From Methanohalophilus sp. (GTDB taxonomy: Archaea > Halobacteriota > Methanosarcinia > Methanosarcinales > Methanosarcinaceae): a stretch of DNA of 64,000 nt. The translations under genes were made by a program, and so were the position numbers. The notes beneath the pieces are model-generated. The model worked only from the letters and a program-made list of their open reading frames with translations, did no database searches and had not been told where the DNA came from. Location: positions 1 through 64,000 of the forward strand of contig NZ_JASGLW010000007.1 in assembly GCF_030156785.1 (NCBI RefSeq), given 5' to 3'. Shown one piece after another: positions 31,989 to 36,516 of this stretch (its first letter is position 1; each line of letters opens with the position of its first letter).

Positions 31989-32615
31989 ATGGAAGCACCT
32001 CTTATTTTTGAAAGACTCAAGGAAAACTACACTCTACAGTTCTTTCTGGACAGGCATGATCCGTTCTATGTCCTGATTTCCACAGTGCTTTCGCAGCGTA
32101 CCCGTGATGAGGTTACACAGGTAGCGACCAAGCGACTTTTCAAGCGCTATGACACGCCGCAAGACTTCGCCACCGCAGATGTGGAAGATATTGAACATCT
32201 CATCAGGGATGTCGGTTTTTACAGGATGAAAGCACCGAGGGTAATTCAGATAGCTTCCATCCTGCTGGAAAAGTATGACGGAGAAGTGCCTGAGGATATG
32301 GATCTGCTTCTTGATCTTCCGGGAGTGGGACGAAAGACGGCGAATTGTGTTCTGGCTTACGCTTTTTCCAGAGATGTTGTTGCAGTGGATACGCACGTGC
32401 ACCGCATATCCAACAGGCTCGGGATCGTTAAGACTTCCAATCCTGAACAAACTGAGGAATCGCTCAAGGAAGTGCTTCCTGAAGATATGTGGAGGGATGT
32501 GAACGAGTTGTTTGTAAGCTTCGGGAAAGAAATCTGCAGGCCGATCTCCCCGAAATGCGGTGTATGTCCCATAGATGATATGTGCGCAAAGCTCGGTGTA
32601 AATAAATCCGACTAA
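31989..32615 (+). CDS. nth: Endonuclease III
   Basis: A DNA glycosylase/AP lyase that removes oxidised pyrimidines, 208 residues. It shows the helix-hairpin-helix LPGVGRKTANCVLA with the catalytic Lys, the catalytic Asp in VAVDTHVHRI, and a C-terminal [4Fe-4S] motif with the exact spacing C-x6-C-x2-C-x5-C (CRPISPKCGVCPIDDMC). The start is ATG 31989; the frame from 31962 has no SD. Confidence 0.95.
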   Translation: MEAPLIFERLKENYTLQFFLDRHDPFYVLISTVLSQRTRDEVTQVATKRLFKRYDTPQDFATADVEDIEHLIRDVGFYRMKAPRVIQIASILLEKYDGEVPEDMDLLLDLPGVGRKTANCVLAYAFSRDVVAVDTHVHRISNRLGIVKTSNPEQTEESLKEVLPEDMWRDVNELFVSFGKEICRPISPKCGVCPIDDMCAKLGVNKSD

Positions 32616-32669
32616 GCTTTAGTGAAAAAAAGGCACTTTCTCTTTTCAGTTGGACGATATGGTCACAAA

Positions 32670-32680
32670 ATATTTATAAG
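32670..32680 (+). promoter_or_regulatory. Distal promoter upstream of the protease gene
   Basis: The TATA-like ATATTTATAAG predicts a start near 32700, immediately before the inverted repeat at 32722-32758. A transcript from here has a leader of about 130 nt. Confidence 0.45.
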
Positions 32681-32721
32681 TTATACTCCATAGGATTTAC
32701 TCTACATCGAAAATATGTTTG

Positions 32722-32758
32722 GGGGTTCAACTTGACCTAACAACGATTGTTGAACCCC
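32722..32758 (+). other. Perfect 10-bp inverted repeat in the protease gene leader
   Basis: GGGGTTCAAC (32722-32731) and GTTGAACCCC (32749-32758) flank a 17-nt loop, followed by a small TGCC-TTGA-GGCA hairpin. It may be an attenuator, a terminator of a short RNA made from the distal promoter, or a target for a regulator. Confidence 0.45.
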
Positions 32759-32792
32759 GTGCCTTGAGGCAAGGCTAAGTTTGCCATTTACA

Positions 32793-32802
32793 CTATATAA
32801 AC
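32793..32802 (+). promoter_or_regulatory. Proximal promoter of the protease gene
   Basis: CTATATAAAC lies about 26 nt before the expected start near 32822, leaving only a few bases of leader ahead of ATG 32829. Confidence 0.5.
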
Positions 32803-32828
32803 ATAGCTTTGCTTCTGGGGTAAATTGA

Positions 32829-33944
32829 ATGAGGCAAAGTATGAGAAGAAGTACAAAATCAATACTGCACATTTTGCTAATAAGTGTGTTTTTGGTTGGA
32901 ATGTCATTATCGGGCTCAGCTGCTCCAAATGATGATAACGAAGAAAAGAAATTGCCAGATTATGGTCTAAATATCCATGAAAAACTAGAAAAGGATGACA
33001 AAGTTCTCAAGACAAAAGGGAAAATACCTGAAATAAAAGAGGAAAAGGAAAAGCGAGAGTGGCTTGATAAGCTGGACAGCAGTGGGAGGAAAGTGAACGA
33101 AGAAATGCTTCAATATATGCAACCAGAAGGTCCCTTGGTCTCATGTGGTTATAATTATCAAGGGTATTTGGTTGTTGATATATTGGAAGGATCTGAAATT
33201 GATGAATCAACGATGAATGAAATTTACGAAATATACAACAAACAAGCCAAAAAAGATGGAATCGAGGAAGTTCCCGTTGTATTCCAATACTCACCACAAA
33301 TTGAAGTTACGTCACGAACTAGTACGTGGAATCCACTTATTGGTGGAATTAGAGTTGTGAGAAGTGGTGGATTTAGTTCAACTCTTGGTTTTGCAGTAAG
33401 AGATGAAGATAATCCAAGTGAAGAGGGCTTTTTGGTTGCAGGTCACAGTGCAATTAATGCTGGTGGTATTGGAAGTATGTTTTACCAACCTTATGTTAGT
33501 ACCACAAAAAGAGTAGGTACTGTAGATAGACTCGAATTTGAATATGCAGATGCGGCATTCATAGAGGATGATTATAGAAGCGTTGATAACAAAATTTATT
33601 ATGATGATACTAATCAATTGATGGACGTAACATCTTTTGATGATCCAGAGGTTGGGGATTATGTTAGAATTTCAGGAATAACTTCAGGACTAACTTCAAG
33701 TGGTCGAGTAACAGATATTCATTATATGACAACATACCCTGGTTATGACATATTATATGACCAATGTAAAGCCGAGTATAGCTCTGACAGTGGAGATAGC
33801 GGAGCACCCGTGTTTAAGATAACTGGTACTTCCACAGTCTGCATATACGGAATACAAAGCGGGAAGATCGGAACTTCCTACTCACTGTTCTCGCCAATAA
33901 GTGGGATTACTGAAGATTTAGGTGTTGTTCCCCTTACATATTGA
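32829..33944 (+). CDS. Secreted trypsin-like serine protease with propeptide-like domain
   Basis: A 371-residue protein with a signal peptide (cleavage after about residue 31, GSAA), a charged segment, a domain at about 77-155 (EWLDKLDSS ... GIEEVPVVFQYS) and a chymotrypsin-fold catalytic domain. The triad is visible as His206 (GFLVAGHSA), Asp241 (YADAAFIE) and Ser324 (GDSGAPVF). The position of the 77-155 domain suggests a propeptide that aids folding and inhibits the enzyme until cleaved. The same domain forms the C-terminal part of the two following HEAT-repeat proteins. Two Cys near 313 and 338 flank the active-site Ser. S1 proteases of this sort are sporadic in archaea; transfer is possible. 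Confidence 0.85.
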   Translation: MRQSMRRSTKSILHILLISVFLVGMSLSGSAAPNDDNEEKKLPDYGLNIHEKLEKDDKVLKTKGKIPEIKEEKEKREWLDKLDSSGRKVNEEMLQYMQPEGPLVSCGYNYQGYLVVDILEGSEIDESTMNEIYEIYNKQAKKDGIEEVPVVFQYSPQIEVTSRTSTWNPLIGGIRVVRSGGFSSTLGFAVRDEDNPSEEGFLVAGHSAINAGGIGSMFYQPYVSTTKRVGTVDRLEFEYADAAFIEDDYRSVDNKIYYDDTNQLMDVTSFDDPEVGDYVRISGITSGLTSSGRVTDIHYMTTYPGYDILYDQCKAEYSSDSGDSGAPVFKITGTSTVCIYGIQSGKIGTSYSLFSPISGITEDLGVVPLTY

Positions 33945-34011
33945 AGTATTATCTGAAGCATAACACTTTTTACTTTTTGTTTTACAAATATTTTAATCAA
34001 GGTAGGTAATC

Positions 34012-35199
34012 ATGCTAACAAAAATATTAGTTTTAGCAACCATAACTCTAATGTTAATCACACCATTAACAGACGCCGATACCAATCCGGATGCTTCTGA
34101 AAATGAGACTGCAGTTGAAGTGCTAATAGAGAACCTGGCTAATGAAAATGTGTCCGTAAAGTCAGAAGTTGTACGAAGTCTTGTTGATATTGGGGAACCT
34201 GCCGTAGCCCCTCTTATTCAGGCATTGGAAAACGACAATCCGGATATCCGGAAAAACTCTGCAATTGCACTTGGTAAAATCGGAGATGAAAGGGCGATTG
34301 AACCTCTTCTTGATCTATTAGATGATGATAATCGAGAAGTGCGTCATGCGGCGGAAATTGCTCTTGGGAACATCGGGGAAGAAAGCATAGATCTGTTAGT
34401 ATCCTATGCCAAAAATCAGGACAATGCTGTATATTCCAGAACAATAGCAGTAATTGTCTTGGGAGAATATGGTGAAAAGGCAGTACCCTCACTTATTCAG
34501 TTACTGTCTGATGATGAGTACTTTTTGCTACATCCTGACGTAAGATCTGCCCTGAACAAGATCGGAGATCCTGCCGTAGAACCTTTGATTGGGTTACTTG
34601 ATAGCGCTGATCCCGATGTAAAATCCCGTGCCATTCAAACCCTTGGTGATATTGGTGATGATAGGGCAATTGAACCGCTTGGCAAAGTCCTGAACGATGA
34701 ATCAGAACAGGTCAGAGATCTTGCAAAGTCCGCTATAGAGGCGATTGAAAATCAAAGTAAAGATGAAAATTTGTCTCTTGTAAGTTATGGGAAAACACCA
34801 GATTTCTATATCGAAGATGAAAGGTGGGATTTTCTCGACAAACTGGATATTATTGTAACTGCTTCAGAAACAGAAATGGACAAATACATCCGGCCTAAAG
34901 GTCCTGTATATGGTTATGGATACAGTTATTACGGATATATTTCAGTTGGAATTGTAGCAGATTCGGGTGCTAATGAATCCAAGTTAAACGAAATCTACGA
35001 CATTTTTGATCGACATGCACAGGAGATTGGCGTTGAAGATGTACCTGTCATGTTTGAGTACGGAGATGTTGTAGCTGGTGAGGGGCAACCTGTAGCTGGC
35101 GAAGGAGAACCAGTAACTCAGAAGACTCCCGGATTTACAGGGTGTCTGCCTATTATGGTGATTCTGTTGTTATATGGGAAAGTCCGTACTTGCCCTTGA
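34012..35199 (+). CDS. Surface HEAT-repeat protein 1 with protease-propeptide-like domain
   Basis: A 395-residue protein: signal peptide (MLTKILVLATITLMLITPL...), about six PBS-lyase-type HEAT repeats (about 34-248, for example IGEPAVAPLIQALENDNPDI), then a domain at about 271-350 (FLDKLDIIV, PKGPVYGYGYSYYGYISVGI, NEIYDIFDRHAQEIGVEDVP) that aligns along its length with residues 77-155 of the protease encoded just upstream. The C-terminus has a PGF motif (373-375), a hydrophobic stretch and an Arg, resembling the PGF-CTERM archaeosortase sorting signal. HEAT repeats bind proteins. A role as surface-held binder or inhibitor of the protease is inference. Confidence 0.8.
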   Translation: MLTKILVLATITLMLITPLTDADTNPDASENETAVEVLIENLANENVSVKSEVVRSLVDIGEPAVAPLIQALENDNPDIRKNSAIALGKIGDERAIEPLLDLLDDDNREVRHAAEIALGNIGEESIDLLVSYAKNQDNAVYSRTIAVIVLGEYGEKAVPSLIQLLSDDEYFLLHPDVRSALNKIGDPAVEPLIGLLDSADPDVKSRAIQTLGDIGDDRAIEPLGKVLNDESEQVRDLAKSAIEAIENQSKDENLSLVSYGKTPDFYIEDERWDFLDKLDIIVTASETEMDKYIRPKGPVYGYGYSYYGYISVGIVADSGANESKLNEIYDIFDRHAQEIGVEDVPVMFEYGDVVAGEGQPVAGEGEPVTQKTPGFTGCLPIMVILLLYGKVRTCP

Positions 35200-35340
35200 T
35201 TTCTTTTCTGAATTTTTTAGGTTCAGTTCTATAAGACACTTGAAAACGATAATGTTCTGGATTTTTTGGTCCAAGGCCCCATTCCTGTCGATTTGAAAAT
35301 GATGGCTCTGTAGAAATTCTCTGCATTCAAGGTAGATATA

Positions 35341-36516
35341 ATGTTAACAAAAAATTTCTTTTTAGCAATTTTGGTTATAATATTAGTCACAACTATTACA
35401 TACGCTGATACCAATCCTGTCGCGTCCGAAAATGAAGCCACAATTGAAAAGCTAATAGAAAAATTAGCCGATGGAAACATATCCGTAAGGTCTGATGCTG
35501 TAAAGGGTCTTGTTGATATCGGGGAACCTGCCGTAGGATCACTTATTCAGGCATTGGAAAATGACAATCCGGATATCCGGGAAAACTCTGCGCTTGCACT
35601 TGGTAAAATAGGGGATAAAAGGGCAATTGAGCCTCTTGTTTATCTAATTGAGGACAACGATGTGAACGTCCGTGGTGCGGCGGAAATTGCTCTTGTGGAC
35701 ATTGGGGAAGAAAGTATTGATATGCTAGTAGCTTATGCCAAAAATCAGGACAATGTTGAATATGAACGGAGATTAGCAGTAATTTTCTTAATAGAATATG
35801 GTGAAAAAGCGGTACCCTCCCTTATTCAGGTATTGTCAGATAATGAGAGTTTTGTTTTGCACCGTGACGTAAGATATGCCTTGAGCGAAATCGGAGAACC
35901 TGCCGTAGGACCGCTAATAGAATTACTTGAGAGTGATGATCCAGATGTGAAGTCTCGTGCCATTCAAACCCTTGGTGATATTGGTGATGAAAGGGCTATT
36001 GTGCCACTTGGTATGCTCCTGAACGATGAATCAGAACAGGTTCGAACTCTTGCAAAGTCCTCCATAGAAGCGATTGAAAATCAAAGTGAAAATGGGAGGC
36101 TTCATCTCACCAATTATGGGAAAAAACCAGATTTTTATATCGAAGCTGAAAAACGGGATTTCCTCGACAAGTTGAAGATTGTTGTAGAGGCTTCGGAAAT
36201 AGAAATGGATGAGTATATAAGGTCTGAAGGCACAGTATCTTCATATGGATACAATTATGGCGGCTCTATTTCAGTTGGACTCGTAGTAGGTTCGAATGTC
36301 AGTGAATCTGGGCTAAACGAAATTTATGACATCTTTGATCGACATGCGCAGGAAATTGGCATTGAAAATGTACCTGTTATGTTTGAGTATGGAATTATTG
36401 AACCGCATGACCTCCCGGTCCAAGAACCAGCAACACAGGATACGCCTGGATTAACAGGATGGTTGCTTTTTGTGGTGATTCTGCTATTGTATTGGAAAAT
36501 CCGTACCAATCCCTAA
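35341..36516 (+). CDS. Surface HEAT-repeat protein 2 (paralogue of the preceding gene)
   Basis: A 391-residue paralogue with the same order: signal peptide (MLTKNFFLAILVIILVTTI), HEAT repeats to about residue 248, propeptide-like domain (FLDKLKIVVEASEIEMDEYI ... IENVPVMFEYG) and a C-terminal PGL motif plus hydrophobic segment and basic end (TPGLTGWLLFVVILLLYWKI). The PGF of copy 1 is PGL here, which may weaken or change sorting. It most likely arose by tandem duplication, which suggests dosage or specificity selection. Confidence 0.8.
   Translation: MLTKNFFLAILVIILVTTITYADTNPVASENEATIEKLIEKLADGNISVRSDAVKGLVDIGEPAVGSLIQALENDNPDIRENSALALGKIGDKRAIEPLVYLIEDNDVNVRGAAEIALVDIGEESIDMLVAYAKNQDNVEYERRLAVIFLIEYGEKAVPSLIQVLSDNESFVLHRDVRYALSEIGEPAVGPLIELLESDDPDVKSRAIQTLGDIGDERAIVPLGMLLNDESEQVRTLAKSSIEAIENQSENGRLHLTNYGKKPDFYIEAEKRDFLDKLKIVVEASEIEMDEYIRSEGTVSSYGYNYGGSISVGLVVGSNVSESGLNEIYDIFDRHAQEIGIENVPVMFEYGIIEPHDLPVQEPATQDTPGLTGWLLFVVILLLYWKIRTNP

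Follow-up and report, generated by a model that had tools for sequence, protein, structure and literature searches.

Why should the domain that precedes the catalytic part of a secreted archaeal protease be encoded again in the genes directly behind it? This question is raised by a cluster of three genes in a 64,000-nucleotide stretch of Methanohalophilus sp. (contig NZ_JASGLW010000007.1 of assembly GCF_030156785.1, positions 1 to 64,000), here called the window. The genes share the forward strand, are separated by gaps of 67 and 141 bases and encode a secreted serine protease of the alpha-lytic/streptogrisin-like type (371 residues, 32829..33944) and two paralogous proteins, HEAT-1 (395 residues, 34012..35199) and HEAT-2 (391 residues, 35341..36516). 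An original prediction, made by a model from the letters and their translations, had placed three open reading frames (ORFs) at these positions and HEAT repeats in both downstream proteins; the ORFs are confirmed, and Pfam detects the repeats as HEAT_2 with E-values of 1.5e-37 and 8e-43. It had also claimed that one domain, which we term X, is common to the protease (X in cis) and to both neighbouring proteins (X in trans). Our data support this claim and indicate that X is an undescribed domain whose pairing with such proteases is a habit mainly of the Methanosarcinaceae.

Domain X is shared by the protease and both HEAT-repeat proteins

The X domain of the protease matches the C-terminal region of HEAT-1 in blastp with an E-value of 2e-21 (43% identity over 91 residues, ungapped). 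Profile-profile comparison of 20 protease-linked and 12 HEAT-linked X domains by hhalign gave an E-value of 6.5e-36, which confirms that the domain is shared. The X domains of HEAT-1 and HEAT-2 are 70% identical, and a search of the genome with X of HEAT-1 returned the three copies of the window and none besides. The AlphaFold2 (AF2) model of the protease, built with 27 sequences, has a mean predicted local distance difference test score (pLDDT) of 83.9 and a predicted template modelling score (pTM) of 0.82, with pLDDT values of 92-98 for X itself; the model of HEAT-1 X alone, built with 74 sequences, has a mean pLDDT of 94.8. In both models the predicted order of elements is strand, helix, short helix, strand, strand, helix, strand. 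The domain had been assigned to residues 77-155 of the protease. It is real but longer, covering about residues 59-155 (~95 residues, 33003..33293) in the model, with a match to the X profile at 64-154.

The trans copies were located at 34789..35061 in HEAT-1 (blastp, profile and AF2 model) and at 36118..36390 in HEAT-2 (profile search). Their description as the C-terminal domains of these proteins holds for the presence of X but not for its place at the end, as a linker and a C-terminal hydrophobic segment come after it. This segment is PGF-type in HEAT-1 (35128..35196) and PGL-type in HEAT-2 (36445..36513), in both cases seen by eye and in hydropathy; the HEAT-1 segment was not recognized by NCBIfam. 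Both proteins have the same layout of signal peptide, HEAT repeats, X, linker and hydrophobic segment.

With 74 X domains, no credible match was found in Pfam (lowest E-value 0.004 among the best 25 of 52 families), and NCBIfam gave no credible match for X either; the window copies searched in Pfam by themselves likewise gave none. Among PDB sequences the best E-value was 0.021, for 31 residues of beta-lactamase inhibitory protein, which is taken as a chance match. Because there is no credible match in Pfam, NCBIfam, PDB sequences or Foldseek, X is an undescribed domain as far as the Pfam, NCBIfam and PDB libraries go. On the same negative results, which for Pfam cover the best 25 of 52 families, X was not assigned to a known propeptide family.

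X occupies the pro-region position of an S1E-like protease

The original prediction of a secreted chymotrypsin-fold protease proved correct. Its catalytic triad, His206 (33444-33446), Asp241 (33549-33551) and Ser324 (33798-33800), is intact, and all three residues are invariant in 36/36 aligned proteases that carry X (X-proteases). A profile of 27 X-proteases retrieved streptogrisin-like and alpha-lytic proteases from PDB sequences (2sfa, E-value 3e-13), and Foldseek with the protease model returned 2sfa as well (2e-13, TMt 0.85). Among solved structures, S1E proteases are the closest in fold and in profile. The catalytic domain (33321..33941) is defined by its profile, the triad, Foldseek and the PDB-sequence profile. 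S1E proteases have conserved disulfide cysteines, whereas the 36 X-proteases contain 0 to 5 cysteines each, and no column conserved at 85% is a cysteine. Pfam gave no protease match in the window protease itself, and routine annotation may therefore miss it. The Pfam family Pro_Al_protease (PF02983) does not match the window protease at E-values up to 1, nor is it among the best 25 of 52 families for the 74 X domains or the best 25 of 29 for the 27 X-proteases; a genome search with PF02983 is uninformative, as it found no match in any control genome.

In the protease, X is preceded by a signal peptide at about residues 1-31 (32829..32921), assigned by eye from an AxA-type end and modelled with a helix at 8-26. 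Mature residue 2 of alpha-lytic protease falls on profile position 170 in the alignment, right after X, and X is therefore placed in the slot of a pro region. This agrees with the propeptide-like position that had been proposed. The junction between X and the mature protease (residues 156-172, 33294..33344, within SPQIEVTSRTSTWNPLIGG) appears disordered in the AF2 model at residues 164-172 (pLDDT <50); the N-terminus of the mature protease is expected near the SRTSTWNPLIGG junction. Read from the pTM alone, X is predicted to pack on the catalytic domain in a fixed manner, since 0.82 compares with about 0.53 for freely moving, independent domains, a value that is our own estimate.

Two proteases of the same catalytic family from outside the Methanosarcinaceae (L170:3336-4700 and L171:1948-3363) have in place of X another N-terminal region, about 235-255 residues long, which ends at an IRPLxGGI junction too. 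A relationship between X and this region was rejected (hhalign probability 1.4%). No relatives of the whole protease were found in viral contigs or named genomes.

X genes lie next to most of the family proteases

We searched the 111 genomes (14 genera) of the Methanosarcinaceae, below referred to as the family. The 70 matches to the catalytic domain correspond to 68 loci, and at 56 of these the catalytic domain is complete. At 55 of the 56 complete loci it is preceded by X, in the same ORF at 51 and in a separate or shifted ORF at 4; the sole locus without it (L033:4000) appears to be N-terminally truncated. A separate downstream X gene on the same strand and within 2.2 kb was found at 44/56 complete loci, and at 5 of the 12 partial loci (of the 7 others, one ends with its contig). 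The pairing is seen in six genera and with three types of partner, which carry a single X, tandem X-X or HEAT-X. What is kept in related archaea is thus the pairing of protease and X, and not the HEAT repeats that had been regarded as part of the design. HEAT-X is the partner at only 2/44 paired loci (the window and L033), the other 42 partners being devoid of HEAT repeats, and an essential working role for these repeats was rejected for this reason.

The trans proteins were characterized in a set of 105 family ORFs of 150 residues or more. An N-terminal hydrophobic stretch is present in 98/105 and a C-terminal one in 86/105, and 92/105 have a PGF-like end according to a loose pattern. The junction that follows X in cis, of the GG type in 36/50 and of the SR-S-W type in 22/50 cis X domains, was found in 0/105 of the family trans ORFs; outside the family, at least one trans ORF (L167:6217) matches the cis junction pattern. 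NCBIfam C-terminal sorting signals were not detected above the cut-off in any of eight proteins, with Heimdall-CTERM below the cut-off in one, and for this reason we infer membrane anchoring of the trans X proteins from their sequences rather than assign it. The surface layout proposed for the HEAT proteins is consistent with these features, which support an exported and probably anchored protein.

Cis and trans X are conserved at the same positions, their conservation profiles correlating with r = 0.86. A tree was built from 208 X domains (>35 bits, 70 residues or more); the cis/trans label requires 17 changes on it, with at least 9 forced by the starred branches. This result is to be taken with care, because the tree was made by a quick method from few columns and has long branches. 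In 42 modules consisting of an intact single-ORF X-protease and a downstream X gene, the distances of the downstream X correlate with those of the catalytic domain at 0.79, and those of the cis X at 0.69. The partial correlation between catalytic domain and trans X given cis X is 0.61, and that between cis and trans X given the catalytic domain is 0.30. When partners were permuted within genomes, 0/5000 permutations reached the observed catalytic-trans value (mean 0.45), 0/5000 the catalytic-cis value and 4/5000 the cis-trans value. These sequence distances show that the modules are inherited as units.

Another arrangement was found in genome G059. There, two paralogous proteases (L060 and L065) consist of a signal peptide, a short junction and the catalytic domain, without X. 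The gene directly upstream, in overlapping frames or 35 bases off, codes for a divergent X that contains an insertion and has a hydrophobic C-terminus (hidden Markov model E-values 8e-10 and 1e-11, 4000 sequences). Where two domains are joined in certain genomes but encoded apart in others, they often interact. The split loci are the best comparative hint in these sequences, and a suggestive one, that X may serve the protease in trans.

Anchored prodomain copies may bind the mature protease

Our preferred explanation, to which we give even chances, is that X is a prodomain and that uncleavable copies of it in the neighbouring proteins bind the mature protease in trans, thereby inhibiting or tethering it. 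In cis, X would serve a secreted S1E-like protease as its N-terminal prodomain and would be cut off at the junction. The downstream gene or genes would display extra, uncleavable X copies at the outside of the membrane. Two HEAT-repeat proteins are the carriers in the window, and proteins that have simply one X or two take this part at 42/44 paired loci. A trans X would then occupy the site on the mature protease where its own prodomain had sat. Once bound, it would inhibit the protease and/or keep it at the surface of the producer, with self-protection and local proteolysis as the outcome. Support for this explanation comes from the pro-region position of X with its predicted packing, the pairing at 44/56 loci, the split loci, the shared conserved positions of cis and trans X, the co-divergence of partner X and catalytic domain, and the hydrophobic ends of the trans ORFs. 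The original interpretation, in which the HEAT proteins hold a trans-acting propeptide or inhibitor on the surface to tether, mature or neutralize the protease, is thereby supported in part. Two precedents bear on the proposed mode of action. For the alpha-lytic pro region, PMC2829044 describes faster folding and a C-terminus that is linked to the N-terminus of the mature enzyme, the junction lying across the active site. For the archaeal subtilase pernisine, PMC10580911 states that the propeptide inhibits its own protease.

Several observations weigh against this explanation. If X acts like the alpha-lytic pro region, a tail is expected in the active site, and the trans copies are without it. 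With X alone, Foldseek gave 0 PDB matches at an E-value of 0.001, and a known propeptide inhibitor is absent among the best 50 of 763 matches. The split form is confined to one genome, G059. Co-divergence could come from gene linkage alone, so that it supports contact between the partners without proving it. Furthermore, 12/56 complete family proteases have no downstream X gene (L034, L060, L065, L070, the second of L072, L180, L181 and L185-L189). Outside the family, 7/10 intact X-proteases fetched (L133-L142) are likewise without one, the other three being L133, L134 and L141; L172, whose X is weak and which has no partner, was not counted, and L170 and L171 were set apart for their other N-terminal region. 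Because of these absences, the partner gene is a habit mainly of the Methanosarcinaceae and no universal need. Six of the twelve (L070, L185-L189) are paralogues in G012. This small genome has ten matches to the catalytic domain (L184-L190, L197, L069-L070), and six complete proteases in it stand without a downstream X gene.

The distribution of X beyond the proteases is a further point on this side. X gave 386 matches in 72/111 family genomes (8/14 genera), and the catalytic domain was found in 35/111 (6/14 genera). Since all 35 protease genomes are among the 72, X is present in 37/72 family genomes without a detectable protease. In a sample of the phylum, X occurs in 83/392 genomes, 39 of them outside the family. 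Wide occurrence of the HEAT proteins without the protease had been named as a ground for refuting the original prediction, and this is borne out in part: 18/21 HEAT-X domains examined have no protease in the fetched flanks, and 3 lie beside one. These orphan loci were taken from the top X matches and are a sample, not a census. The gene that follows at 6/17 orphan HEAT-X loci (L073-L089) is from a single beta-propeller-type family, and the three members scanned are PQQ/beta-propeller proteins. In Methanosarcina, exported propellers of the PQQ/BamB type lie directly downstream of orphan HEAT-X (L074:4171-6123, L079:7328-9187 and L085:3292-5217) and are possible partners of it. At L095:4525-5577, X is fused to a NosD/right-handed beta-helix region. 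From this comparison, the orphan X proteins may reflect either further roles of X or protection against the proteases of other cells.

It is conceivable, if rather unlikely, that X is a general cell-surface interaction module, pairing with another X or with an envelope partner, and that the protease docks on the surface of the producer by its X without being inhibited, the X proteins being receptors or parts of a scaffold. The occurrence of X in 72 and of the protease in 35 of the 111 family genomes would fit such a module, as would the combination of X with HEAT repeats, with the beta-helix region and with itself in tandem, and the propeller-type neighbour at 6/17 orphan HEAT-X loci (three scanned). 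Against a general module stands the position of X before the catalytic domain at 55/56 loci, where only a short junction separates it from the N-terminus of the mature protease. In addition, the partner X tracks the catalytic domain (partial r 0.61) more closely than the cis X (0.30), which argues weakly against X-X pairing. We consider it quite unlikely that X is a mere sorting domain that unrelated surface proteins share for binding the envelope or S-layer, and that came to lie near the protease by tandem duplication, without direct contact between the two. An N-terminal hydrophobic stretch in 98/105 family trans ORFs and the repeated changes of context on the tree are consistent with sorting, but the pairing in six genera with three partner types, the nearly fixed X-protease order and junction and the rigid packing predicted from the pTM speak against it. 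That the partner is a membrane-anchored folding catalyst needed in trans, a steric chaperone like Lif, is more doubtful still: although the sole X at L060 and L065 is a separate protein beside the protease, and the alpha-lytic pro region and the membrane-based Lif are classed together as steric chaperones in part of PMC3352829, 51/56 proteases have their own X, the partner is missing in 12/56 within and 7/10 outside the family, and X without a protease is common.

If the anchored copies do bind the mature protease, they might also provide immunity in a protease-based conflict or in kin recognition among methanogens, an extension to which we attach little credence. A released S1E-like protease would then attack the surface proteins of neighbours, the many X proteins of protease-free genomes would represent orphan immunity to proteases released by neighbours, with HEAT-X as a variant that holds the inhibitor on a long stalk. 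As in effector-immunity pairs, the X gene lies directly downstream and orphans occur; the likeness extends to gene order and orphans and no further. Bacteria have orphan immunity genes that lack a cognate effector, as PMC10539506 describes. Antagonism dependent on a secreted serine protease has been published for haloarchaea (PMC12893001); for the X-protease such a role is hypothetical.

Relation to known systems

X-proteases resemble proteases with S1E pro regions in catalytic fold, sequence profile and N-terminal prodomain position, and differ in that S1E pro regions have no detectable similarity to X. We know of no S1E system with extra prodomain copies encoded next door. The MEROPS family I9 contains free-standing propeptide-like inhibitors of subtilases with the order beta-alpha-beta-beta-alpha-beta. 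Such inhibitors are, like trans X, a prodomain-like unit apart from the protease, and their order of helices and strands resembles that of X. However, their targets belong to family S8 and not to an S1E-like group, and the X copies look membrane-anchored and gene-paired. I9 is not among the best 25 of 52 Pfam families for the 74 X domains, and no propeptide of any kind appears among the best 50 of 763 Foldseek matches. Lif differs from X, which is a small alpha/beta domain that is also fused to the enzyme, and no Pfam relation is seen among the best 25 of 52 families. A whole-chain Foldseek match of the protease was obtained with the plant protein NARROW LEAF 1 (NAL1) of rice (8pmm_A, TMq 0.55, 370 columns, root-mean-square deviation 5.5), the catalytic part of which is also matched by the sequence profile.

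In a 2008 survey (PMC2605481), a trypsin-family protease is listed neither for Methanosarcina acetivorans nor for M. mazei or Methanococcoides burtonii. A Methanosarcina proteome paper (PMC4350412) lists a 'periplasmic serine protease', MM0866; in another (PMC3361143), a term search gave one irrelevant mention. A literature search, judged mostly from listings, found no paper on such a pairing of protease and prodomain copies. These results tie an undescribed domain to secreted chymotrypsin-fold proteases that have been overlooked as a group. They also show a conserved genetic pairing, with the putative prodomain present a second time in an exported protein encoded next to the protease. Should the copies in the partners bind the mature enzyme, extracellular proteolysis would be under a new mode of control.

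Surroundings of the gene cluster

Between the upstream gene and the start of the protease lies an inverted-repeat region (32715-32830). It contains a perfect 10-bp inverted repeat, GGGGTTCAAC...GTTGAACCCC, at 32722-32758, followed by a second long hairpin. Its predicted RNA fold has an energy of -42.5 kcal/mol (z -5.1), and the inverted-repeat pattern has one match in the window and 0 in 100 shuffles. An Rfam search of the region gave no match; it is possibly a structured leader or an upstream terminator.

The closest relative of the window protease that was seen belongs to another genus (L033 in genome G022; 75% identical, 71% in the catalytic part). With two proteases of its own genus (G031 and G035) it shares 45-46% identity over the catalytic part. 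Since the window protease is closer to L033 than to these two, it may have been transferred. The G+C content is 37-43% at 32500-36500 and about 45% beyond 36500, and the stretch that precedes the cluster also drops to 40%.

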